DNA of 52,531 nucleotides from Nanobdellota archaeon (GTDB lineage Archaea > Nanobdellota > Nanobdellia > Woesearchaeales > GW2011-AR4). The DNA lies in assembly GCA_022564635.1 (NCBI GenBank), contig JADFLA010000004.1, forward strand, positions 1 through 52,531. The letters run 5' to 3'. A program made the translations under genes and the position numbers. Numbering within the stretch: the first letter of the stretch is position 1; each line of letters opens with the position of its first letter. Positions 2,024 to 12,035 of this stretch are shown piece after piece. The notes beneath the pieces were generated by a model that saw only the letters and a list, made by a program, of their open reading frames with translations, was not told the DNA's origin and searched no databases.

Positions 2024-2515
2024 TCAACATCCATCATTAGCTTTGCATATTAAATTTTCCAAATCTTTTTTATAAACAAAAGATGGATGTATTATTTCAT
2101 CAAAGCCATTGACCTTAAGTATCAATGTTGGAACTCTTATTGCCCCATATTGAATAAATTCCTTCTCACAATTGTCAATATTAAAAAACTCCAGAGAAAA
2201 CAAATTTCCTTTCTCTTTCAACAATTGTTTTAGTATAGGATCTTGTTTTTTGCACCATGCACAAAAATCAGAATAAAAGTATTTTATATTAAAAACCGAT
2301 TCTTTGTTGCCTGCTATTGCATCAGGACACCCTTTTTCTTCTAATTTATTTATTTCGCTGAAATCAAAGCTCACTTCATTACTATTCTGGGTTATTAAAT
2401 TATTTAACTCTGCCTTATATTGATAGATAATAACTGCAATTGATATGTTTACGAATATTGCTATTATTAATATTATAGTTAAAGATGTAGTTCTTTTATT
2501 GCTTTTCTTTGACAT
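2024..2515 (-). CDS. Membrane-anchored thioredoxin-like protein
   Basis: The track ORF begins at a TTG at 2533. I prefer the ATG at 2515 (MSKKSNKR), which starts one base after the stop of the upstream CcdA gene (tagaATG) and suggests translational coupling. The protein then has about 163 residues: a basic N-terminus, one membrane anchor, and an external thioredoxin-like domain with FCAWCKKQ as the CxxC site and RVPTL as the cis-proline loop. CxxC and cis-proline are both present, so it looks like a working thiol oxidoreductase, probably the electron acceptor of the adjacent CcdA protein. A further Cys pair near the C-terminus (CKANDGC) is unusual and could form a second disulfide. The exact substrate cannot be told from sequence. 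Confidence 0.85.
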   Translation of the reverse strand: MSKKSNKRTTSLTIILIIAIFVNISIAVIIYQYKAELNNLITQNSNEVSFDFSEINKLEEKGCPDAIAGNKESVFNIKYFYSDFCAWCKKQDPILKQLLKEKGNLFSLEFFNIDNCEKEFIQYGAIRVPTLILKVNGFDEIIHPSFVYKKDLENLICKANDGC

Positions 2516-2516
2516 T

Positions 2517-3221
2517 CTAAACAAAAATCGCAAATGCCCTATTTACAGCGATTTGATAATATATAATATAGCTGCCGGCAATTATTATTACAACAGCAGT
2601 TATAACCCTTACATATGGAAATATCCTAGAGAATTTTTTCATAATAGTAACTTTTGACATAGCAGTTATTACAGAGATGCCAACTACTCCAACAGCAGCT
2701 GCAACTGAATATATTAGGAAGATAAATATTCCATCGATAACACTACCTGTACTTAAAGCGCTTATTATTATAGCCAAAAAAACAGGTAGCGTGCAACTCA
2801 TTACTGCTAAACCATACCCTATCCCAAAAGTGTAAAAACGCAAAAAGCCGTTGTTTATTTTTTTCTTGGGTTGCAAATGAAACGGAAGCGCAAAAGAAAA
2901 ATTCTTATTAAATAACATGAAGAAACCAATAATTATCAAGACAAGCCCAACAACCAGGGTAAAGATTGGAATATAAAATTTTATAAAATTGCCAATATAA
3001 ACTATAATAGCTCCTATAATCATAAAGATGGATATTAGACCAAAAGAAACAAACAAACCATTTTTTAAGCCATTAAATAAATCCTTTTTTACATTTTTTT
3101 CACTTTTTTCCCTTCCAATGTAATAAGAAACATAGGCTGGAAGCATAGCTATGCCACATGGGCTTATGAATGTTACAAACCCTGCTGCTATTGCCACAGA
3201 TATTAAAGCCAGACTAATCAT
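2517..3221 (-). CDS. CcdA/DsbD-like thiol electron-transfer membrane protein
   Basis: A 234-residue polytopic membrane protein with about six hydrophobic segments. The first reactive cysteine is in SPCGIAMLPAYVSYY near residue 22 and the second in MSCTLPVF near residue 142, matching the two membrane-embedded cysteines of CcdA proteins, which carry reducing equivalents across the membrane. Length is typical of a stand-alone CcdA. It lies 11 bases after a TlpA-like lipoprotein gene and directly before a thioredoxin-like gene, the usual CcdA-TlpA arrangement. No cytochrome c maturation genes are visible, so the usual role in c-type cytochrome assembly is not supported here. Confidence 0.93.
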   Translation of the reverse strand: MISLALISVAIAAGFVTFISPCGIAMLPAYVSYYIGREKSEKNVKKDLFNGLKNGLFVSFGLISIFMIIGAIIVYIGNFIKFYIPIFTLVVGLVLIIIGFFMLFNKNFSFALPFHLQPKKKINNGFLRFYTFGIGYGLAVMSCTLPVFLAIIISALSTGSVIDGIFIFLIYSVAAAVGVVGISVITAMSKVTIMKKFSRIFPYVRVITAVVIIIAGSYIIYYQIAVNRAFAIFV

Positions 3222-3232
3222 TTTTAAAATTT

Positions 3233-3805
3233 TTAAGCTGTTAAACCTCTAAATATTGTTTCCCATTGCTCGTCATTTAAAACCCCATAGCCGGAGTAAA
3301 GAATAATACCTTCTCTGCTTACTGCAAATTTAGCTGTTGTTCCCCTAATTCCATAATCCGTTAATACTTCCGGATAACCCGGAGCAAAAATAAAGTCATG
3401 ATTTCTACTAGTTTTATATTGGCTTAATATTTGAGCATTTTCAGTCAAATCAAGATCAATTGCTATAAACTCTACTTGGTCCTTATATTTTGGATAAACT
3501 CTATCTACAACAGCCAAATCCTGTGTACAGTAAGGACACCATGTTGCCATAAAATAAACCAAGACAGGCTTGTTTTGCGCAGTTATCTCGCTTAATTTTA
3601 TTGTATTGCCTTCTGTTGTTGTAACTATAAAGTCTGGTGCTCTAAAGTCTTTACTATTACCAACGGGTATATCCCCTATAGCACTTTGTCCTTGCTGCAC
3701 AGCACTGCTGCTTATATTAACGTTTTTAGCACAACCTGCTATAAATATCAATAAAATAACTGAAATTCCTAATAAATATTTAACAAAAATTGCTTTTAGC
3801 TTCAT
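3233..3805 (-). CDS. TlpA-like thiol-disulfide lipoprotein (CPYC)
   Basis: A 190-residue TlpA/ResA-like protein. The N-terminus is a lipoprotein signal with lipobox IAGC, so it should be lipid-anchored on the outer face of the membrane. The thioredoxin fold shows FMATWCPYCTQD, an intact CxxC. The position that normally carries the cis-proline (consensus PTTF) reads TAKF after GIRGT, so the cis-proline appears to be threonine. It sits immediately upstream of a CcdA gene, which fits a CcdA-to-TlpA reducing pair. Likely role: a disulfide reductase or metal-handling thiol protein outside the cell. Start chosen at the ATG encoding a good signal sequence. Confidence 0.9.
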   Translation of the reverse strand: MKLKAIFVKYLLGISVILLIFIAGCAKNVNISSSAVQQGQSAIGDIPVGNSKDFRAPDFIVTTTEGNTIKLSEITAQNKPVLVYFMATWCPYCTQDLAVVDRVYPKYKDQVEFIAIDLDLTENAQILSQYKTSRNHDFIFAPGYPEVLTDYGIRGTTAKFAVSREGIILYSGYGVLNDEQWETIFRGLTA

Positions 3806-3819
3806 TTTTAATCAATCCA

Positions 3820-4449
3820 TTATTTTTTAGTTATAGTATATCCTAATATTTTGCTTAGTTCACTTTCTAAAGTTTCCAATGATGTTATCCAATTATCTTT
3901 ATATGTAATAAAACCATTTTTGTCTATCATAAATGTAGTTACTGTTTGCTTTACACCATACATTGAAGCAATTTTTGTGTCTTTATCCACTAGATGAATC
4001 CAATTTCCTCCATAAATTTTTACATACTTCTTAAAATCTTCATTGGAATCAAGTTGATAGGTATCGATTGATATAATTATTAAGCTATCTTTGTACTTTT
4101 CTTTTAGTTGCTCAAAAGCGTCTCTTTCATCAAAGGTCATTCCACACCAGGTAGCTGTAAAATCTAAGATAACTACTTTACCATTGAAATCGCTCAAGCT
4201 ATATGAATTACCCTTTATGTCCTCAAAAGAAAAATCAGGTGCTTTTTCTTCAACCTCTAGTACTGGTAAATCCTTATCATAAAGTTCTGGTATTGGCATT
4301 CCTCTAGACTTTACTTTAGCCGCATCTTTTATCAGATTTGAAATAAGTATGTTATCATCTTTACTTTGAGTTTGACAGCCAACAATAAAGAGTAACATAC
4401 CTGCCCCTACTAACAAACATGTTTTACTTAGTAATTTATTAAATGACAT
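3820..4449 (-). CDS. TlpA-like lipoprotein with CxxT active site
   Basis: A 209-residue TlpA/AhpC-TSA-like lipoprotein. The signal ends in the lipobox FIVGC. The domain begins with APDFSFEDIKGNSYSLSDF, typical of TlpA, and continues FTATWCGMTFDE at the active site. The usual WCGPC is therefore WCGMT: the resolving cysteine is threonine. The cis-proline loop reads QTVTTFMIDKNG, with valine where proline is expected. Both were checked on the nucleotide sequence. With one cysteine it cannot form the usual internal disulfide, so it may work through mixed disulfides, bind metal, or act as a chaperone. It lies 14 bases before the CPYC-type TlpA gene, and the two may have diverged from a duplication. 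Confidence 0.88.
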   Translation of the reverse strand: MSFNKLLSKTCLLVGAGMLLFIVGCQTQSKDDNILISNLIKDAAKVKSRGMPIPELYDKDLPVLEVEEKAPDFSFEDIKGNSYSLSDFNGKVVILDFTATWCGMTFDERDAFEQLKEKYKDSLIIISIDTYQLDSNEDFKKYVKIYGGNWIHLVDKDTKIASMYGVKQTVTTFMIDKNGFITYKDNWITSLETLESELSKILGYTITKK

Positions 4450-4484: not shown

Positions 4485-5423
4485 TTAATGCTCATGCTCA
4501 TCTCCAAAACCTGCTATTGCATCTTCTATAATATGCTCATAATACAAAGACATTCTTTTAATACTTTCTACCTTTCCATTAACGAAAAATGAAGAAGCGT
4601 TGATACCAATTTTTTCAGCAGTTTTTAAGTTATTAACAATTTCAAAAACATATTCTCTGTTTATTATGCAATTTTCAAATTTTTCAATATCAATGCCAAT
4701 CTCATCAGCATAGCTAACTAAATTTTCCTTACTACCAAAATTTTCTTTATCTTGATTTTTAAATAATAATTTGTGATATTCCCAGAACTTATTTTGCTGT
4801 TGAGCACATCTTGCAGCTAAAGCTAAATTTATAGAGTCAGGATTTGGCGCAAAATCCTTAAAAACATACCTCAATTTCCCATTATCTACAAATTCCTTAA
4901 TTATTTTCGGCTTTATTTTTTCATTAAATTCTTTGCATTCTTTACAATTAAAATCCTCAAAAACAATTAAGGTTGTAGCATCTTTGCTTCCTAATATAGG
5001 ATCTGAACTATCTACAAAATCCTCAGCTTTGAAAACTGGTTTTATTTGAAATTTGTTAAACTCTTCTTCTAATAATATCTCTGCATCATAGTAGCTTGTA
5101 AATATTTTTAAACTAATTATATCTTCTGGATTAATTAAACCAGAAATGTATTTTACTTCAGCGGTTTCAGCTTCAAGGTTGATATTAATTTCTTTAATAC
5201 CTTCTTCCGATAATAATGCTTTTTTTATTGTTGTTACACATGTAGGACAAGTCATTCCCCTTACCTTTAAATATGAAGTTTCAATTGAACCATCAAGGAC
5301 ATCATTAGAAGGTTTAGATTTTATATTATTAAAACTAAGAATAGCATAACTCCCGCCTATCATTAACAAAAGTACGAATATAAGTAAATATGTTTTGGAT
5401 TTAATTTCATTCAATTTAAACAC
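4485..5423 (-). CDS. Membrane-anchored HMA domain fused to a DsbA-like thioredoxin domain
   Basis: 312 residues. An N-terminal anchor (about 13-33) precedes a heavy-metal-associated domain with MTCPTCVTTIKKA, the CxxC metal site of MerP/CopZ-type proteins, and then a DsbA-like domain (from about residue 125) with FEDFNCKECKEFNEKI as its CxxC. The loop before the last strand reads INASSFFVNGK; the cis-proline of DsbA proteins (TPTFFVNG) is serine. A linker FTSYYDAEILLEEEF after the HMA domain resembles linkers in two other HMA proteins of this cluster. The gene abuts the upstream CcdA gene (stop 5424). An HMA-DsbA fusion suggests thiol chemistry coupled to a soft metal such as copper or mercury, but the metal is not determined. 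The C-terminus GDEHEH adds possible ligands. Confidence 0.9.
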   Translation of the reverse strand: MFKLNEIKSKTYLLIFVLLLMIGGSYAILSFNNIKSKPSNDVLDGSIETSYLKVRGMTCPTCVTTIKKALLSEEGIKEININLEAETAEVKYISGLINPEDIISLKIFTSYYDAEILLEEEFNKFQIKPVFKAEDFVDSSDPILGSKDATTLIVFEDFNCKECKEFNEKIKPKIIKEFVDNGKLRYVFKDFAPNPDSINLALAARCAQQQNKFWEYHKLLFKNQDKENFGSKENLVSYADEIGIDIEKFENCIINREYVFEIVNNLKTAEKIGINASSFFVNGKVESIKRMSLYYEHIIEDAIAGFGDEHEH

Positions 5424-6314
5424 CTATCTTACCTGCCAAAAATAAACATACATAAGATAAATCCCAACAACAATTAAAAGAGCGCTGCTTATCTTCTTGA
5501 TAGTGTTGCCAGCTATGCTAAGCTTGTTTAATAATAAATCTTTATATGAAGCGGTCATTGTTGTTACAATAACCATTGATAATCCATTTCCAATCAAAAA
5601 CGCTAAAAATCCAAATAAGCCAATTGCAAATTTTCCCAATATGAACGGTGACAAGATAACAATCAAGAAAATTGGTAATGTACATGCAGTTGAGCCAGCA
5701 GCATAAGCCATGCCAAAAAGATAAATCTTAACCTTGGGGCTCTTGATCTTGCTGGAATTTATTTTTCCCACCATACCTGATGATAATCTCTCAAATCCGA
5801 ACTTAAAATCTTTCTTCAGAAAATAACTTACACCCATAATAATAAAAACAATTCCAACTACTAATATTAAGGAATTAGTTATTGATTGTAATGATGTAGC
5901 TGCTCCAATTAAGAATAAAGGTATAGCAATTAAGACAAAGAAAGTTGACATGCCTAATGCTGCTATGAGACCTTTTCCAGCAGCTTTTCCAAAAGTTTCT
6001 TCTTTATCACCAGTTGTTATATAATATGCCATATAACTTGGGAGTATTGCTATTGAGCAAGGACACGGTGCTGAGAAAACTACTGTTCCAGCCAAAAAAC
6101 TAAATGCTAATGTAAGAATTAAAATTGAGTTATCTATATTATTTATATTGGGCAGTATAAACTTATAGTAACTGAAAATTCCTAGTCCAACTATTCCCAG
6201 AAAGATTAATGTAAGTACTAAAATAGATAGTTTGTCTTTACCAGAGCTTTTGGGCATTTTGTTATTTGCATTAGATGTATTCTTTGCTTTATTTGATTTT
6301 TTTATAATTATCAC
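5424..6314 (-). CDS. CcdA/DsbD-like thiol electron-transfer membrane protein
   Basis: 296 residues. A Lys/Asn/Ser-rich cytoplasmic tail of about 27 residues is followed by an extra anchor and then the CcdA domain with SAPCPCSIAILPSYMAYY and, near residue 210, STACTLPIFLIVIL. These are the two reactive-cysteine helices of the family; here the first carries two cysteines (PCPC), unlike the usual SPC. It is directly followed by the HMA-DsbA gene with no spacer and preceded by the His-motif lipoprotein gene with one base between, so the three are probably cotranslated. Likely role: electron supply across the membrane to the thiol/HMA proteins of this cluster. Confidence 0.92.
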   Translation of the reverse strand: MIIIKKSNKAKNTSNANNKMPKSSGKDKLSILVLTLIFLGIVGLGIFSYYKFILPNINNIDNSILILTLAFSFLAGTVVFSAPCPCSIAILPSYMAYYITTGDKEETFGKAAGKGLIAALGMSTFFVLIAIPLFLIGAATSLQSITNSLILVVGIVFIIMGVSYFLKKDFKFGFERLSSGMVGKINSSKIKSPKVKIYLFGMAYAAGSTACTLPIFLIVILSPFILGKFAIGLFGFLAFLIGNGLSMVIVTTMTASYKDLLLNKLSIAGNTIKKISSALLIVVGIYLMYVYFWQVR

Positions 6315-6315
6315 C

Positions 6316-6855
6316 TTAAGGACCTATTTTAATGCTATTCAGAAAGTTAAGCTGCCCATTAACATCGTCCTCATTCCCGTAGCTTATCAATAATCTGTCA
6401 TTATCTTTAATAATATAATTATCGAAATCATTATTCAACTTTTCATTGACGTAAAACTTTAAATTTTTATCATCATTATTGCAATAACTATTTCCTTTGT
6501 CATCTACGAAACAATTTTCATCAAAACCCATTCCTAAAGTCTCTAAAAAATGTCCTATAGTAATTCCGGTGGCATGCTTATGGATAATTATGCCATCCAA
6601 TCCCTCAATATGTACACGTCTCGCTCTAACCATGTATTCAGGCTTTGAAAGATCAAGTACATTACCATTTATGAATATTAAAAATGCAGTATGCTCATGG
6701 GTAGAATCCCAAGGTCCTATTGATGGATCTTTCAACACATATAAAGGCCTATCAATCGGTCCTCCATGAGGGGTGGGTTGAGGTGCTCTGCAACTGGCTA
6801 AGAAAATTAAACTCAATAAAAATAACATTGATAATAACAATTTTTTATTTTTCAT
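6316..6855 (-). CDS. Secreted lipoprotein with HxH motifs, family unnamed
   Basis: 179 residues with a lipoprotein signal ending LASC. The mature part has STHEHTAFLIFINGNVLDL, VHIEGLDGIIIHKHATGITI, FLETLGMGFDENCFVDDKG and a final FYVNEKLN...DRLLISYG block. I recognise this as a recurring archaeal/bacterial extracellular family of unknown function with two conserved HxH motifs, which could bind a metal such as copper or zinc. It carries a Cys pair (CFVDDKGNSYC). Its place between HMA and CcdA genes supports a metal-related role, but that is an inference. Start chosen at the ATG giving a complete signal peptide. Confidence 0.85.
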   Translation of the reverse strand: MKNKKLLLSMLFLLSLIFLASCRAPQPTPHGGPIDRPLYVLKDPSIGPWDSTHEHTAFLIFINGNVLDLSKPEYMVRARRVHIEGLDGIIIHKHATGITIGHFLETLGMGFDENCFVDDKGNSYCNNDDKNLKFYVNEKLNNDFDNYIIKDNDRLLISYGNEDDVNGQLNFLNSIKIGP

Positions 6856-6880: not shown

Positions 6881-7891
6881 TTATGGTGCCATAGATTGCA
6901 ACTCATCTAAACTATCTCTTATATCAATAGGAATATCTTTACCATATATTTTTTCTAATACTTCTTTGTGTCTAGGCAAATTCTCATTTACCTCTTTTAA
7001 GACCAAATCAGAAAACAACAAAAGCTGCTTTTTCTCCTTACCTTTTTCCTTGGCAGTTTTTACGAATTTTAAAGTGTTGCTGAGAGAAGCTGTATAAGCA
7101 TCTGACAGAGCTTCTTTATTTTCTTCTATCTTATTAATATTTATTAAAAAGTTCATTTCCTTTATTCTATTGTTAGCCATTAAAAACTGATTTTTGGCTT
7201 TGTAAATGACGGTGGGGGATAAAGAAAATCTAACTTGCTCAGTTTTAATTTTTGCAGGATATATGTAGGTTCCAGGAGTATAAGAAGTACCTAAATTTTC
7301 AATTAAAGATGATAATCTTAACATTAATTTTATTCTCTTTTCATTATTTTCTGGAGTTCCTTCTTTAATTTCTTTGCCTCTGCTTTCAACTTCATCCAAT
7401 AAAGAAATAATTTCATCCATCCCTTCCTTGCTCCTTATTGCAGTTAATATTTTAGCTTCTGCCTTTTGTAATGGCTCTATAGCGTACCTATAATCATAAT
7501 CTAAAACCGGGCTGCTTTCAAATTTAAAATCATCAGCTTCTCCTACTATTTTTTCTTCAACAAATTTAGCAGTATAATATCCAGAAAAAATGTCATGGTT
7601 TAAGATTTCATCTTTGCTTATTACAAAATCATTATAGTTTAAAATTGTATTTCCGGTTTCCAATTCTATAGTAGTATTAATTATACCCGGAGTACCTTCC
7701 AATGAACTTTTTACAACATTTGCGCATGCCTGGCAAACAAGACCTTTAACCTCTAATCTTAATTCTTTTATTTTTCCTTGTGTAGCTTTTTCCTCAGGAG
7801 AATTATATAGTAATAATGAAAATAGAAATATCCCCATAATAAAAACAATTCCAAATCCAATAATAAAATTAGTTATTTTTTTACCTTCCAT
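6881..7891 (-). CDS. Membrane-anchored HMA-domain protein with a long helical C-terminal region
   Basis: 336 residues. A membrane anchor (about 9-30) is followed by an HMA domain in which VKGLVCQACANVVKSSL supplies the CxxC metal site, then a segment IFSGYYTAKFVEEKI that recurs in related form in the other two HMA proteins of the cluster. Residues from about 125 to the end are mostly charged and helical, with no further cysteine, and I do not recognise the fold. The protein may present an external HMA domain on a helical scaffold. It lies 12 bases downstream of the TlpA-HMA gene and 25 upstream of the HxH lipoprotein gene, clearly in the same operon. Confidence 0.85.
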   Translation of the reverse strand: MEGKKITNFIIGFGIVFIMGIFLFSLLLYNSPEEKATQGKIKELRLEVKGLVCQACANVVKSSLEGTPGIINTTIELETGNTILNYNDFVISKDEILNHDIFSGYYTAKFVEEKIVGEADDFKFESSPVLDYDYRYAIEPLQKAEAKILTAIRSKEGMDEIISLLDEVESRGKEIKEGTPENNEKRIKLMLRLSSLIENLGTSYTPGTYIYPAKIKTEQVRFSLSPTVIYKAKNQFLMANNRIKEMNFLININKIEENKEALSDAYTASLSNTLKFVKTAKEKGKEKKQLLLFSDLVLKEVNENLPRHKEVLEKIYGKDIPIDIRDSLDELQSMAP

Positions 7892-7903: not shown

Positions 7904-8881
7904 TTATATCTTTTTGTCTTCCAAAAGTTTTGCAGTGTAGCTCCATTCATATTTGGTATTTTCAGAAAAAATATCATTATTTAGAATGTCATTTTCTATT
8001 GAAGTCAAAGTAGAATCATAAACTATAGCCCCTTTACTATTTTCAAGACTTAAAATAACATCAACCACACCGGGAATATCTTTTATGTTATCTTTAATTA
8101 TTTTAATGCACGCTGGACATGTCATTCCTTTTATTTCGAGAACAGCTAAATTGTACCTTTGATTATCAAATATTTCCTCCATTCTTGAGACTTCCTCCTC
8201 AAAATTAATTTGCTTTACTTTACCATAGACATCATCACTTGTTGCAGAGGCATCTAAACTTAGAGATTTTAAACCTAATTTACTTAATTCCTTAACAAGG
8301 GTTTCATACTCTGTAGAATAAGAATCTCTGTAAGCAATTTTTCCATTTTTATCAATTAAAATTGTTGTGCCTGTAAAAGGGCTTCCATATTTTACGACAA
8401 CATTATCGGTATCGCGGGCATAAATCCAATTATCATAACCTTCTGAATATGCCCTAATAAATCTTTTTATGTCTTCGTTTGTTTCTGTAGGATCTATGTC
8501 TACAGATATAATGCTTACTTTTGGAAAATTATTCAATAATTTTCTAAAGTCATCAGTTTCAGAAATGCAAACACCGCACCATGTAGAAAATATCTCAACA
8601 ATCGCTGGATTTCCTCTAAAATCAGACAGTTTAAAGCTTTTTCCATTTACATCCGTAAGTGCGAAATCAGGAGCTTCTTTTCCAGGAGCGCTTTTAATAC
8701 CACCAGCTGCCTTTGCACTTTCTGCTAAAATAAAAGCTATAGGATCAGATTTTTTAATGTCTGGTTTATTAATATTCGTTATAGTAAAATAAATACCTAT
8801 AATAACAACTAACAAAATAAAACCTGCTGACATTCCTAACAAAAAAGTATTTTTTTCCTTTTTTTCCATCTTTAGTTCCAT
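7904..8881 (-). CDS. Membrane-anchored TlpA-like domain fused to a C-terminal HMA domain
   Basis: 325 residues. Anchor about 13-33; TlpA domain from APDFALTDVNGKSFKLSDF with FSTWCGVCISE as an intact CxxC; then a linker and an HMA domain with IKGMTCPACIKIIKDNI, ending near the C-terminus in NDIFSENTKYEWSYTAKLL. In the cis-proline loop the sequence is SPFTGTTILIDKNG, with glycine directly before TTILID where proline is expected. The order is the reverse of the HMA-DsbA protein, so thioredoxin-fold and HMA modules have been joined at least twice independently in this cluster. The first seven residues (MELKMEK) match those of the next gene upstream; a start at the second ATG (8866) is possible. 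Confidence 0.9.
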   Translation of the reverse strand: MELKMEKKEKNTFLLGMSAGFILLVVIIGIYFTITNINKPDIKKSDPIAFILAESAKAAGGIKSAPGKEAPDFALTDVNGKSFKLSDFRGNPAIVEIFSTWCGVCISETDDFRKLLNNFPKVSIISVDIDPTETNEDIKRFIRAYSEGYDNWIYARDTDNVVVKYGSPFTGTTILIDKNGKIAYRDSYSTEYETLVKELSKLGLKSLSLDASATSDDVYGKVKQINFEEEVSRMEEIFDNQRYNLAVLEIKGMTCPACIKIIKDNIKDIPGVVDVILSLENSKGAIVYDSTLTSIENDILNNDIFSENTKYEWSYTAKLLEDKKI

Positions 8882-8916: not shown

Positions 8917-9141
8917 TCAGAAACAACCGCCTACTTGGTCTGGTATCTCTGCTTGTATATCAATTACACTTTTTGAGGGACTTGGGCTGCCAGTAGTAAT
9001 TTTTGTCGAGGCACTTCCTATTGAAAAGCCTCCTTCATTAAGACTATTTTTGACATTAATTAACTGTATTGCCTGCACTGTTGCTATAAGCAAAGTCACT
9101 ACAACTAAAATTAAAAGTATTTTCTCCATTTTTAACTCCAT
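8917..9141 (-). CDS. Small membrane-anchored protein ending PDQVGGCF
   Basis: A 74-residue protein with one N-terminal membrane segment (about 8-25), a Ser/Thr/Gly-rich linker, and the C-terminus IPDQVGGCF. The last eight residues are identical to those of the next gene upstream, although four of the eight codons differ at synonymous positions. The only cysteine lies one residue from the end. The start is supported by a strong ribosome binding site GGAGGTG five bases before the ATG at 9141. Expected topology places the GGCF tail outside the membrane. I do not recognise a family. The tail may be a mobile thiol, a metal ligand or a processing signal; see findings. Confidence 0.82.
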   Translation of the reverse strand: MELKMEKILLILVVVTLLIATVQAIQLINVKNSLNEGGFSIGSASTKITTGSPSPSKSVIDIQAEIPDQVGGCF

Positions 9142-9159
9142 TTTTGCACCTCCATGAAT

Positions 9160-10029
9160 TTAAAAACATCCACCTACCTGGTCTGGGACAACACTTGATA
9201 TATCCTGTCCTCCTAGAGCTGCTTCTACTCTCAGTTTTCCATTTCTTGAGAAAGTCTGGACATCTATTGGTATTGTTGATGGGTCCAAGCCCTGATCTAA
9301 ATAATACTTTGCCCATTTAACTGCCATACCAGGGAAAAAGTAGGCCATCCATACTCTTAACTCATCTTCTATCTGGTCTTTCGTATAACCTTGTTTTAAC
9401 AATAAGGTTGTTAAACCTCTAATTGTTCCTTTTTTAAAGCAACCACCTGCACCACCCGGGGCATTGCAAAACAAGCAACCACCTACCGCATCTTTAAAAT
9501 TATTTTCTTGAGTTCCATACATTAAATCAGCGTAAATCTTTTGTTGCTCAGAGGTTAAGTCCTTAGGTACATCTTGTCTGCCTCTGCCACCATTAGGCGG
9601 AAAGGGATCAAACTTCATAAGAATATTTCTTTTATCTAAAGTTAATTCAATTGGCTGCCCATTAACTGAAAAAGGTCTTATCTTATCTTCTTCACTTGGT
9701 AAAACCGCTGCAGCAATTTCTTGAATCGAAGCGTCACTTCCTAGATTTATGGTTCTACTAGAAATCCCAATAGAACTGCCAGTAACAGATATTGGTAAGC
9801 TAAATATCATATACTGATTAAAAGCCAGCACAAGAAACACTAAAAACATTATAATCATATACGGTTTATAGTTTACCTCCTCTTTTTTTTCATCCTCTGC
9901 ATGATGTAAAATATTATATGGTTTATGGCTAATTTTTCCCTTTTTTTTATGAAGAACATGGTATATAACCTTATTATACTCAGAACCTAATTCTTCACTT
10001 TTCTCATGATCTTTTTGGGATCCTTCCAT
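9160..10029 (-). CDS. Membrane-anchored GGC-rich protein ending PDQVGGCF
   Basis: 289 residues. A charged cytoplasmic N-terminus of about 55 residues precedes one membrane segment (about 57-78) and an external region. The middle holds AVGGCLFCNAPGGAGGCF, three cysteines in glycine-rich context including a CxxC, followed by a helical segment with LLLKQGYTKDQIEDELRVWM. The C-terminus is VVPDQVGGCF. The internal GGCF and terminal GGCF suggest one motif used twice. The helical segment after the cysteine motif is loosely reminiscent of CcmH-type proteins, but I cannot claim homology. The start has a good ribosome binding site (GGAGGT, 11 bases upstream). No known family recognised. Confidence 0.82.
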   Translation of the reverse strand: MEGSQKDHEKSEELGSEYNKVIYHVLHKKKGKISHKPYNILHHAEDEKKEEVNYKPYMIIMFLVFLVLAFNQYMIFSLPISVTGSSIGISSRTINLGSDASIQEIAAAVLPSEEDKIRPFSVNGQPIELTLDKRNILMKFDPFPPNGGRGRQDVPKDLTSEQQKIYADLMYGTQENNFKDAVGGCLFCNAPGGAGGCFKKGTIRGLTTLLLKQGYTKDQIEDELRVWMAYFFPGMAVKWAKYYLDQGLDPSTIPIDVQTFSRNGKLRVEAALGGQDISSVVPDQVGGCF

Positions 10030-10067: not shown

Positions 10068-11345
10068 TTAAACTTCAATAATATCATTAACCTTATTATT
10101 CGAACTACTATCATAACTCAAATCTTTATAAACAATATTCTTACCCATTGCTTCAAGACTTCTAAAAACATAGCTACCATCATCTTCCACTGTAAAAAAG
10201 TTTCCAAAACTTTTTGCAGAAGGATAATCAGAAAAATCACTTGATAATATTATAGTAGGAACTTTAGTAATAGAATATTTCTCAACTAATTCCTTGCCTT
10301 CGTCATCTGAAATATCGATCTTTTTTTCGCTATTAATATTTATGTTAATCCCTCTAGGATTTGACAAAATTTGCCTATGAATTTCTACATCATAGCAATC
10401 TAAACAACTTTTGTCTGATAGGTAAGTAACATCAACTAATCCCACCACTTTATTTTTATTTAAATCAAAATATGGCGGACTTATTGTTCTAAAAATATAG
10501 CTCCCATCATTTTCAACAGTACCTACTTGCTGCCAATCTTTAGTTATATCTTCATAAGCAGATAAATCTGAAGAAATTATTAAGGAAGGCACTTTGTCTA
10601 AGCTATACTTGGAAATAAGTGAATCTGCATTTTTTATATCAACCACTTTTTCATCTGTAATTGCAACACCTAGTTGCTTTAATTGTCGTACAAAGATTGA
10701 CAAGTCTGTGCAATTTCCACAAGTTGCATCATTTATATAAGTTAAAGAAACTCTTCCCATAATTTCATTAGAAGATGTATCAAAATATGGTGCCTTAATT
10801 CCTGTAAATATCAACGCATCGCTCTCTTTTTTTAAACCAAGATTACCTGATTTTTCTATCTCGCCAAAAACTAAAACTGTAGGAATCCTTTTAATATTGT
10901 ATTTGTTAATTAAATCCTTTGCTTTTGCAGAATTCAAATCTAAAGATTCTTCATTTGTAATTTTTACTTTATTATTTTTTATGGAATTTAGGATTTGGCT
11001 GAGATCAAAACAGTCGGTACATGCAGTGTTCTCTATTACTGTGAGCTGAATCTCTGCAGGTCTTGTTAACTCCTCAGCTTCTTCAATTTTTGCCTTAGCT
11101 GTATTTTTTAAGCCAAATGCCAAAAATAGATTTAATATTAGCAATAGGCTTAAAGCAACTACAAGCAAGTTAATTAATTTAATTCCTTTTAAATTCTCAA
11201 AAAAATTAATTTTTATTTTTTTATCATCTGGAATTTTCTCATGAACACTTTTATTATGGTGTTCATGAACATTATGATGCTTTTCCATCCCATCATGCCT
11301 ATTAGTTTGGTGATGCCCTTTTTCTGTATGGTGTTCTTTTTCCAT
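10068..11345 (-). CDS. His-rich membrane protein with three thioredoxin-like CxxC repeats
   Basis: 425 residues. The first 42 residues are rich in histidine (HHTEKGHHQTNRHDGMEKHH and onward) and should lie in the cytoplasm before the membrane segment at about 53-75. Three repeats of about 100 residues follow outside, with CTDC, CGNC and CLDC near the start of each and proline loops RIPTVLVF, KVPSLIIS and KVPTIILS. Repeats 1-2 and 2-3 are joined by similar linkers (APYFD, PPYFD), and the last two share DGSYIFR/DGSYVFR. Each repeat looks like a complete small thioredoxin/glutaredoxin-like domain, so the protein carries up to three external redox or metal sites plus a His-rich inner tail. The His tail may bind nickel, zinc or copper. 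No named family is known to me. Confidence 0.85.
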   Translation of the reverse strand: MEKEHHTEKGHHQTNRHDGMEKHHNVHEHHNKSVHEKIPDDKKIKINFFENLKGIKLINLLVVALSLLLILNLFLAFGLKNTAKAKIEEAEELTRPAEIQLTVIENTACTDCFDLSQILNSIKNNKVKITNEESLDLNSAKAKDLINKYNIKRIPTVLVFGEIEKSGNLGLKKESDALIFTGIKAPYFDTSSNEIMGRVSLTYINDATCGNCTDLSIFVRQLKQLGVAITDEKVVDIKNADSLISKYSLDKVPSLIISSDLSAYEDITKDWQQVGTVENDGSYIFRTISPPYFDLNKNKVVGLVDVTYLSDKSCLDCYDVEIHRQILSNPRGINININSEKKIDISDDEGKELVEKYSITKVPTIILSSDFSDYPSAKSFGNFFTVEDDGSYVFRSLEAMGKNIVYKDLSYDSSSNNKVNDIIEV

Positions 11346-11373: not shown

Positions 11374-11808
11374 TTAAATTTTACAACCTGTTAGATCTGC
11401 CAACCTGTTAAATGTCTGTACATTTTCATAATACTTGCCGTTAATTAACCAAGTAGGTGTTATCTTGATATTAGGATCCTCAGTAAAATCCCTGGAGTCA
11501 ATAAACCTCATAGAATTTCCAAACATTCCCTTTTGTGCATGAGTATATTGACATGCAGATGCACCATACATAATAACACCCTTCTCAGTTAAGCATTGTG
11601 CAAAACCATCCAAGGGCGCTGGCTTCAAAGTATTTAAATAACCAAAACCAATACCCACGAAAATCAAAATAATAGCAACTGAAATACTAGAAACAATTAG
11701 AATTTTTTTGTAATTTTTTGGCTTTTCTATTGTACTTTTGTCTATGTTTTGCTCTGTTTTTTGACTTTCATCCCTAATGCTTTCAATTTCATCCTTGCTT
11801 AAAGCCAT
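11374..11808 (-). CDS. Membrane-anchored thioredoxin-like protein with CxxT site (VKOR-partner type)
   Basis: 144 residues: cytoplasmic N-terminus, membrane segment at about 37-55, and a short external thioredoxin-like domain. The pattern FAQCLTEKGVIMYGASACQY resembles the thioredoxin domain that is fused to or partners VKOR-type DsbB proteins, where the motif is normally MYGxxWCPHC. Here it is ACQYTHAQK: the second cysteine is threonine and the tryptophan is lost. The cis-proline loop is intact (IKITPTWLINGKYY). The pre-domain cysteine in FAQC and the C-terminal LTGC remain. With the second active-site cysteine absent, the catalytic cycle must differ. It is the second gene of the cluster. 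Confidence 0.83.
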   Translation of the reverse strand: MALSKDEIESIRDESQKTEQNIDKSTIEKPKNYKKILIVSSISVAIILIFVGIGFGYLNTLKPAPLDGFAQCLTEKGVIMYGASACQYTHAQKGMFGNSMRFIDSRDFTEDPNIKITPTWLINGKYYENVQTFNRLADLTGCKI

Positions 11809-11816
11809 TTTTGAAA

Positions 11817-12035
11817 CTATAGATTACTAGGGACTGAGCCTATGCTAGCTGAACTATCACCCAAATTGTCTACAGGTGCTACTCCGCAACCACCACCTAC
11901 ATAAGGTTGTTGCTGTCCACCCTGACCCTGTTGCGCACTATAGGCTGCATACCCAGTAGAGCTGCTTTTGGTACACCCAGCCACTAACACAATCCCTACC
12001 AACAATACCACAAATAAAATTGTTTTGTACTTCAT
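11817..12035 (-). CDS. Small Gln/Gly-rich lipoprotein with GGGC motif
   Basis: 72 residues with a clear lipoprotein signal (lipobox LVAGC, mature Cys at about 21). The mature part is short and low in complexity (QQGQGGQQQPYVGGGCGVAP) with a single further cysteine in VGGGCG, resembling the VGGC context of the two PDQVGGCF proteins in the same cluster. It is the first gene downstream of the probable promoter region and lies 8 bases before the next gene. A ribosome binding site-like GAGGG lies about 14 bases before the ATG. No family recognised. Confidence 0.75.
   Translation of the reverse strand: MKYKTILFVVLLVGIVLVAGCTKSSSTGYAAYSAQQGQGGQQQPYVGGGCGVAPVDNLGDSSASIGSVPSNL

Follow-up and report, generated by a model that had tools for sequence, protein, structure and literature searches.

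SoxY, of the SoxYZ complex, carries a cysteine on a glycine-rich C-terminal arm outside the cytoplasm and is linked to the CcdA homologue SoxV and the thioredoxin SoxW. By analogy, it would be the nearest functional counterpart of the C-terminal tail described here, although there is no sequence match and the tail proteins differ in being anchored by a transmembrane (TM) helix, in that several proteins have the same tail, in having the cysteine as last residue, and in their copper setting. DsrC and TusE possess a flexible C-terminal arm with a penultimate cysteine, resembling in this the VGGCF end of the two proteins examined here, but they are cytoplasmic, belong to another family and do not have their tail in common with a second protein.

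The Sco/TlpA/PCuAC module couples copper delivery outside the cytoplasm to thiol reduction, and CuA-type cupredoxins are found beside some of the tail loci; however, no Sco or PCuAC homologue was recognised among the tail proteins and, to our knowledge, no such tail has been described in these families. Within this group, TlpA reduces ScoI and COX II (PMC6696091). The PCYCGC/CYCXC proteins (PF13798, NF041379) are also small, extracytoplasmic and cysteine-rich, and occur near tail genes in seven loci. Lastly, a short conserved C-terminal motif on several proteins is typical of LPxTG, PEP-CTERM, GlyGly-CTERM and Myxo-CTERM proteins, in which the motif is followed by a TM helix and a basic end. 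A signal of the sortase/PEP-CTERM type was rejected, because nothing follows the motif of our tail and the anchor is N-terminal. We found nothing relevant on MVGGC or VGGC in the literature.

Two adjacent genes with a common C-terminus

The window, i.e. the whole stretch of 52,531 nt that was analysed, derives from a Nanobdellota archaeon, in agreement with the DPANN host assumed in the initial annotation. It contains two ORFs on the minus strand, of 74 and 289 aa, each ending in PDQVGGCF (Table 1). The two ends are coded by CCA GAC CAA GTA GGC GGT TGT TTC and CCA GAC CAG GTA GGT GGA TGT TTT, which are identical in 20 of 24 bases, the four differences being synonymous without exception; this, and the internal AVGGCLFC and GGAGGCF motifs of the 289-aa protein, had been noted beforehand and could be verified in the ORFs. 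In a comparison of all pairs among the 150 window ORFs of at least 50 aa, these two had eight C-terminal residues in common and the runner-up pair had three. Within the 1.43 Mb genome, they are the only genes with a VGGCF C-terminus, and none ends in VGGC; GGCF followed by a stop occurs three times, the third occurrence having been discarded as a C-terminus because it sits within a long open frame. Outside this genome, VGGCF-stop appears at background level. The sole cysteine of the 74-aa protein is that of the tail, and a phmmer search related this protein to small proteins ending in MVGGC (best E = 6.4e-14).

Table 1. Position of the tail genes, their motifs and the surrounding genes in the window
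Feature	Position	Strand	Remarks
Membrane-anchored thioredoxin, CxxC	2024..2533	-	Pfam Thioredoxin
CcdA/DsbD_2 transmembrane thiol transporter	2517..3221	-	Pfam DsbD_2
Two TlpA-like redoxin lipoproteins (3233-3805 and 3820-4449)	3233..4449	-	Pfam AhpC-TSA/Redoxin for 3233-3805; the other by clustering
HMA + DsbA-type thioredoxin	4485..5423	-	
CcdA-like membrane protein	5424..6314	-	Clusters with CcdA proteins; no Pfam match of its own
Secreted lipoprotein, family recurring near tail genes	6316..6855	-	No Pfam match; cluster cl9
HMA + DUF5667-like membrane-anchored protein	6881..7891	-	
Membrane-anchored AhpC/TlpA-type redoxin fused to HMA domain	7904..8881	-	
Small tail protein, 74 aa	8917..9141	-	One TM helix, low-complexity linker, tail
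PDQVGGCF tail of small protein	8920..8943	-	
Big tail protein, 289 aa	9160..10029	-	Cytosolic N-terminus, one TM helix, extracytoplasmic domain, linker, tail
PDQVGGCF tail of big protein	9163..9186	-	
GGAGGCF, big-protein residues 192-198	9436..9456	-	Cys aligns with family-invariant C142
AVGGCLFC, big-protein residues 181-188	9466..9489	-	Aligns with family-invariant CxxC (C122/C125, L053 numbering)
Membrane-anchored thioredoxin-like, three CxxC sites, set I partner	10068..11345	-	Pfam Thioredoxin; 56% identical to syntenic L068 protein
Membrane-anchored thioredoxin-like, CxYT replacing CxxC, set I partner	11374..11808	-	Weak Thioredoxin_4 match; conserved beside tail pair
Small lipoprotein, internal VGGGCG as third tethered GGC-type thiol	11817..12035	-	GGGCG small proteins in 12/101 loci
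Membrane-bound winged-helix regulator, extracytoplasmic Cys pair between two TM helices	12268..12789	-	MarR/DUF7343; alignment; in 54/62 long loci

Conservation and distribution of the tail

In a protein search, 16 genomes, that of the window included, had relatives of the 289-aa protein. Most of the other relatives, together with one or two adjacent small genes each, end in MVGGC, with the cysteine as the last residue; the penultimate cysteine on which the initial annotation was centred holds for the window genome, whereas elsewhere what is conserved is (M/Q)VGGC, its cysteine being terminal. The pattern ATG-GTN-GGN-GGN-TGY-stop was present in 99 of the phylum's 371 genomes, its copies being mostly adjacent, versus 3 for the reversed control pattern. 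In a bacterial, CPR-like phylum it was found in 9/192 genomes including the seed genome (8 of the 191 others), and the matches inspected were mostly big and small tail genes, that of L205 not being a tail ORF. Independently of the tail, GTDB genomes were scanned with two patterns from the core of the big protein, [IM][SA]CE[YF]CCG and [GA]KWK[TV]LFF, derived from a closer subset of relatives since the first broad alignment was too weakly conserved. This yielded 244 relatives from Woese-, Pace-, Aenigm-, Diaphero-, Micr- and other DPANN archaea, as well as from some bacteria-labelled bins.

In the best 80 loci of this core-pattern scan, 69 big and 85 small proteins end in VGGC, preceded by methionine in 154/154 ORFs. 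Upstream of this methionine there is an unconserved linker of Ser, Ala, Gly, Pro and Gln, so that the boundary of conservation is sharp. The third codon positions of the tail are near random (1.70 of 4 in common within a locus versus 1.38 between loci), which indicates, as had been proposed for the window pair, that it is the peptide that is under selection and not copied DNA. Chance or a recent gene conversion between neighbours, to which the 20 identical bases of the window pair might point, is refuted by these values and by the occurrence of the same tail in well over 100 loci, and its probability is negligible.

The tail is confined to two protein kinds. Among 50 loci chosen by the tail pattern, the 95 ORFs ending in MVGGC comprised 37 big and 58 small proteins, with no third kind, and small proteins lacking a tailed big neighbour had a tail-less big domain nearby, with one exception at a contig edge. 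The tail genes lie side by side, a big protein with one to three small ones. The tail was absent or unrecognisable in 10 of the 94 big proteins that were fully read, and two more end in VGAC or VGDC; on the tree of the big family, the tail states need four label changes in all. The small neighbours of tail-less big proteins retain MVGGC (QVGSC in L136 and L143), from which we infer that the tail can be supplied, and would act, in trans. The cysteine is retained in each variant seen (VGAC, VGDC, QVGSC, QVGGCF), and the replacement of Met by Gln in the window, L136 and L143 speaks against Met being indispensable as a ligand. (M/Q)-V-G-G-C, at the very end of the chain, is thus a single functional element, selected on two co-travelling membrane-anchored protein kinds. 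Contrary to both refuting conditions posed in the initial annotation, it is present in many related genomes and on the orthologues of both window proteins, and only the big protein's cysteine-rich domain accompanies it constantly.

The five invariant residues, the sharp boundary and the exclusive pairing of big and small proteins would also be expected if MVGGC were a docking peptide similar to a PDZ ligand, assembling both proteins or addressing one enzyme, with no chemistry at the cysteine. Indeed, the complete conservation of M and V exceeds the need of a simple thiol arm or Cu ligand, and could reflect a pure recognition tag. Nevertheless, we consider this unlikely given that the cysteine is present in every variant seen and that the gene setting is rich in thiols.

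The tail system also occurs in the CPR-like bacterial bins L116, L133, L149, L137, L207, L209 and L210. The big proteins of the first four are nested among archaeal ones in the tree, a topology that suggests transfer of the system between DPANN and CPR. Additionally, a big protein with an MVGGC end is coded at the extreme end of a Bacteroidetes-labelled contig (L105:6941-7699), maybe by contamination, chimerism or transfer.

Architecture of the tail proteins

In the small proteins, a TM helix is joined to the tail by a linker with a median length of 46 residues, and there is nothing else; 64/85 have no second cysteine. Positive charges precede the TM helix in 115 cases versus 8, so that, by the positive-inside rule, the tail is predicted to face the outside of the cell. 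The core of the big domain is invariant in 93 of 94 members: R108, C122-[ED]-[YF]-C-C126 ... C140-x-C142-x-H144 ... E171 ... [KR]-W, summarised as the signature RC[ED][YF]CC...CxCxH...[KR]W. None of the 94 members gave a convincing match to Pfam, and homology to the PCYCGC family (PF13798) was also rejected by hhalign (probability 4.3%). The modelled domain is mostly helical, with a mean pLDDT of 90, and a Foldseek search with it against PDB and viral structures (BFVD) retrieved no match with E <= 0.001. In the same model, the pLDDT is 84 across the last six residues and 79 across the linker, suggesting that the tail might dock on the big domain. The novelty would lie in the tag and the two protein families, and the chemistry could turn out to be one that is already known.

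These features bear on a C-terminal processing or modification of the tail, contemplated in the initial annotation, such as trimming to a GG end, as in sulfur carriers of the QbsE/CysO type, or lipidation of the cysteine. The -GGCF end of the window pair presumably resembles the C-terminus of QbsE. However, the big domain was modelled as mostly helical and not as a beta-grasp, the small protein is a TM helix with a linker, and no Prok-JAB protease was found in the genome, which is 87% complete; a ubiquitin-like carrier with a beta-grasp fold, a GG end and a JAMM protease was rejected on these grounds. Furthermore, the C-terminus faces outwards and both proteins are already anchored to the membrane, by an N-terminal segment and with no hydrophobic segment after the motif, which disfavours lipidation or sortase-type processing. 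Any such modification is therefore very improbable.

The 289-aa protein is probably a divergent representative of the big family. It matched a profile built without it with E = 1.1e-13 in a single comparison, and its core reads ICLFC-GCK where the family has RCEYCCCCH, preserving C122, C125, C142, E171 and W175 and having lost R108, C126, C140 and H144. It is only around 25% identical to its syntenic counterpart from the same genus, L068, and the products of the next two genes upstream of the pair are 56% and 47% identical to theirs; the gene order is the same in both loci, and this synteny supports its orthology to the family. In the tree it sits on a very long branch. Among the 94 members, a changed core and a QVGGCF tail are each unique to it, and its small partner carries the same tail; this one event on so long a branch is suggestive of co-evolution of tail and core in the window lineage. 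With M changed to Q, an extra F and an altered core, the window pair would be a divergent member of the MVGGC-tail system.

Gene neighbourhoods and possible role of the tail

The presence of thiol and metal genes near the pair, already pointed out in the initial annotation, was borne out: single proteins in the window join HMA domains to thioredoxin folds, and there are also CcdA-type membrane proteins. Among the 62 loci that span 12 kb or more, the neighbours included a membrane winged-helix (wHTH) regulator with outward cysteines (54), a CPLC membrane protein (45), a MACCAHH-type membrane protein (29), DUF411 (26) and a CSMGM-type cupredoxin cluster (26), as well as a CopA-type ATPase (18), a triple thioredoxin (14) and CcdA (10); the 20 control windows, drawn from the same genomes or from related ones, had none of these clusters. 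Cu-ATPases, COX2-like cupredoxins, a multicopper oxidase and a metal-sensing repressor of the CsoR family were also seen near tail genes. Across 371 genomes, the tail was present in 53 of the 56 that are DUF411-positive and in 46 of the 315 others (odds ratio 103, p ~1e-32). We know of no proven function for DUF411. In Pseudomonas, a DUF411 protein is reported to respond to copper stress (PMC6444534). Most relatives have a neighbour set of CPLC membrane protein, DUF411, CC-tailed proteins, copper ATPase and cupredoxins, different from that of the window, and hence the partner of the tail is not CcdA/HMA as such: the expected co-occurrence with these genes holds in the window but not in most relatives; the partner that stays constant is the big protein's cysteine-rich domain.

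Several other families recur at these loci. The CPLC family (HCPLC...PFQG) carries an invariant CxxC and has no convincing match among known folds or Pfam families; the model of L083:3041-3574 (pLDDT 92) found no PDB fold with E <= 0.001. A second common C-terminus, of the [DE]CCK type (IIDCCKEW, LIECCKKW), is found on a soluble-looking protein (47 loci) and on an unrelated membrane protein (21 loci), e.g. L118:9034-9537, L059:9336-9782 and their clusters. A third small family contains V/AGGGCG, close to the GGCGG of SoxY, either internally in lipoproteins, as in the window, or at the extreme C-terminus (AGGGCGI) of TM proteins (L098:9096-9239, L124:2419-2562). Small cupredoxins with a CuA-type motif (CxxxCxxxHxxM; L052:10070-10462, L060:4644-5057 and others) resemble the 'nosZ-like' CuA proteins of DPANN (PMC10936187). 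The wHTH protein of the window and its aligned relatives, conserved with the tail system, have two TM helices and an outward loop of the Cys...CPxH type. From this arrangement they are possible one-component sensors of external thiols or metals, that of the window being the likely sensor of its system.

The CcdA and thioredoxin neighbours fit redox as well as copper. One reading is a thiol-redox relay with metals in a secondary role, where a thiol conduit across the membrane, namely CcdA in set I or the HCPLC membrane protein in set II, passes electrons on to the tail cysteine as its extracytoplasmic (disulfide) acceptor. The CcdA, thioredoxin and DsbA-like proteins of the window agree with it, as do the occurrence of CPLC or CcdA/triple thioredoxin in 53 of the 62 long loci and the invariant CxxC of both the big domain and CPLC. 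We regard it as doubtful, because a relay would not usually depend on one cysteine per small protein, CPLC has no match in fold to any known conduit, and the copper ATPases, cupredoxins and DUF411 would be left unexplained.

The copper genes also weigh against a carrier arm similar to that of SoxY, with sulfane sulfur or thiosulfate on the tail cysteine. The cysteine of the C-terminal GGCGG of SoxY binds the sulfur substrate (PMC6067878), SoxV is a CcdA orthologue according to a work cited in PMC10451225, and rhodanese-like proteins were detected by regular expression in 10/101 loci. Conversely, copper genes dominate, neither the window proteins nor the family listings of the 94 members included a SoxY match, and no other Sox protein was recognised in the scanned neighbours, making a sulfur carrier quite unlikely.

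We tentatively favour, with a confidence somewhat short of even, a thiol arm outside the cytoplasm, docking on the cysteine-rich domain to hand off Cu(I) or thiols, the neighbouring genes pointing to Cu(I) as the cargo. The tail would swing outside the cell, its cysteine docking within or next to the Cys/His cluster of that domain and passing on Cu(I), or a reducing equivalent for Cu(I) chemistry, between the big domain, the small proteins on their tethers and the neighbours (HMA, DUF411, cupredoxin, CPLC or CcdA/thioredoxin). The small proteins would provide extra arms in trans, which fits the finding of a tailed small protein beside tail-less big ones, and the membrane wHTH protein, with its outward cysteines, would signal to DNA the state of thiols or metals outside. 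The core and both tails would have been altered together in the lineage of the window. Of the roles listed in the initial annotation, a swinging thiol or metal ligand is still the best reading and finds partial support, with a terminal rather than a penultimate cysteine. A broader proposal, which we hold with more reserve and see as possible, is to see MVGGC as a transferable thiol tag of the C-terminus: identical pentapeptide thiols, tethered to the membrane as a pool, would be the shared ligand or substrate, in trans, of a Cys/His domain of new fold, as an external, protein-bound substitute for low-molecular-weight thiols in the copper handling of DPANN and CPR.

Neither Pfam nor NCBIfam nor PDB was found to contain an annotated member of the tail system. 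Two kinds of membrane protein with an invariant pentapeptide mark a surface thiol/metal system in DPANN and CPR, and the tail is a strictly retained hallmark of a gene system, probably for copper handling, in DPANN archaea and some CPR bacteria. MVGGC-stop adjoining CE[YF]CC...CGCxH provides a genomic signature to locate this system. It makes testable both the management of copper and thiols outside the membrane in reduced, mostly uncultured cells, and the idea that free thiol peptides might be provided in the form of tethered tails.
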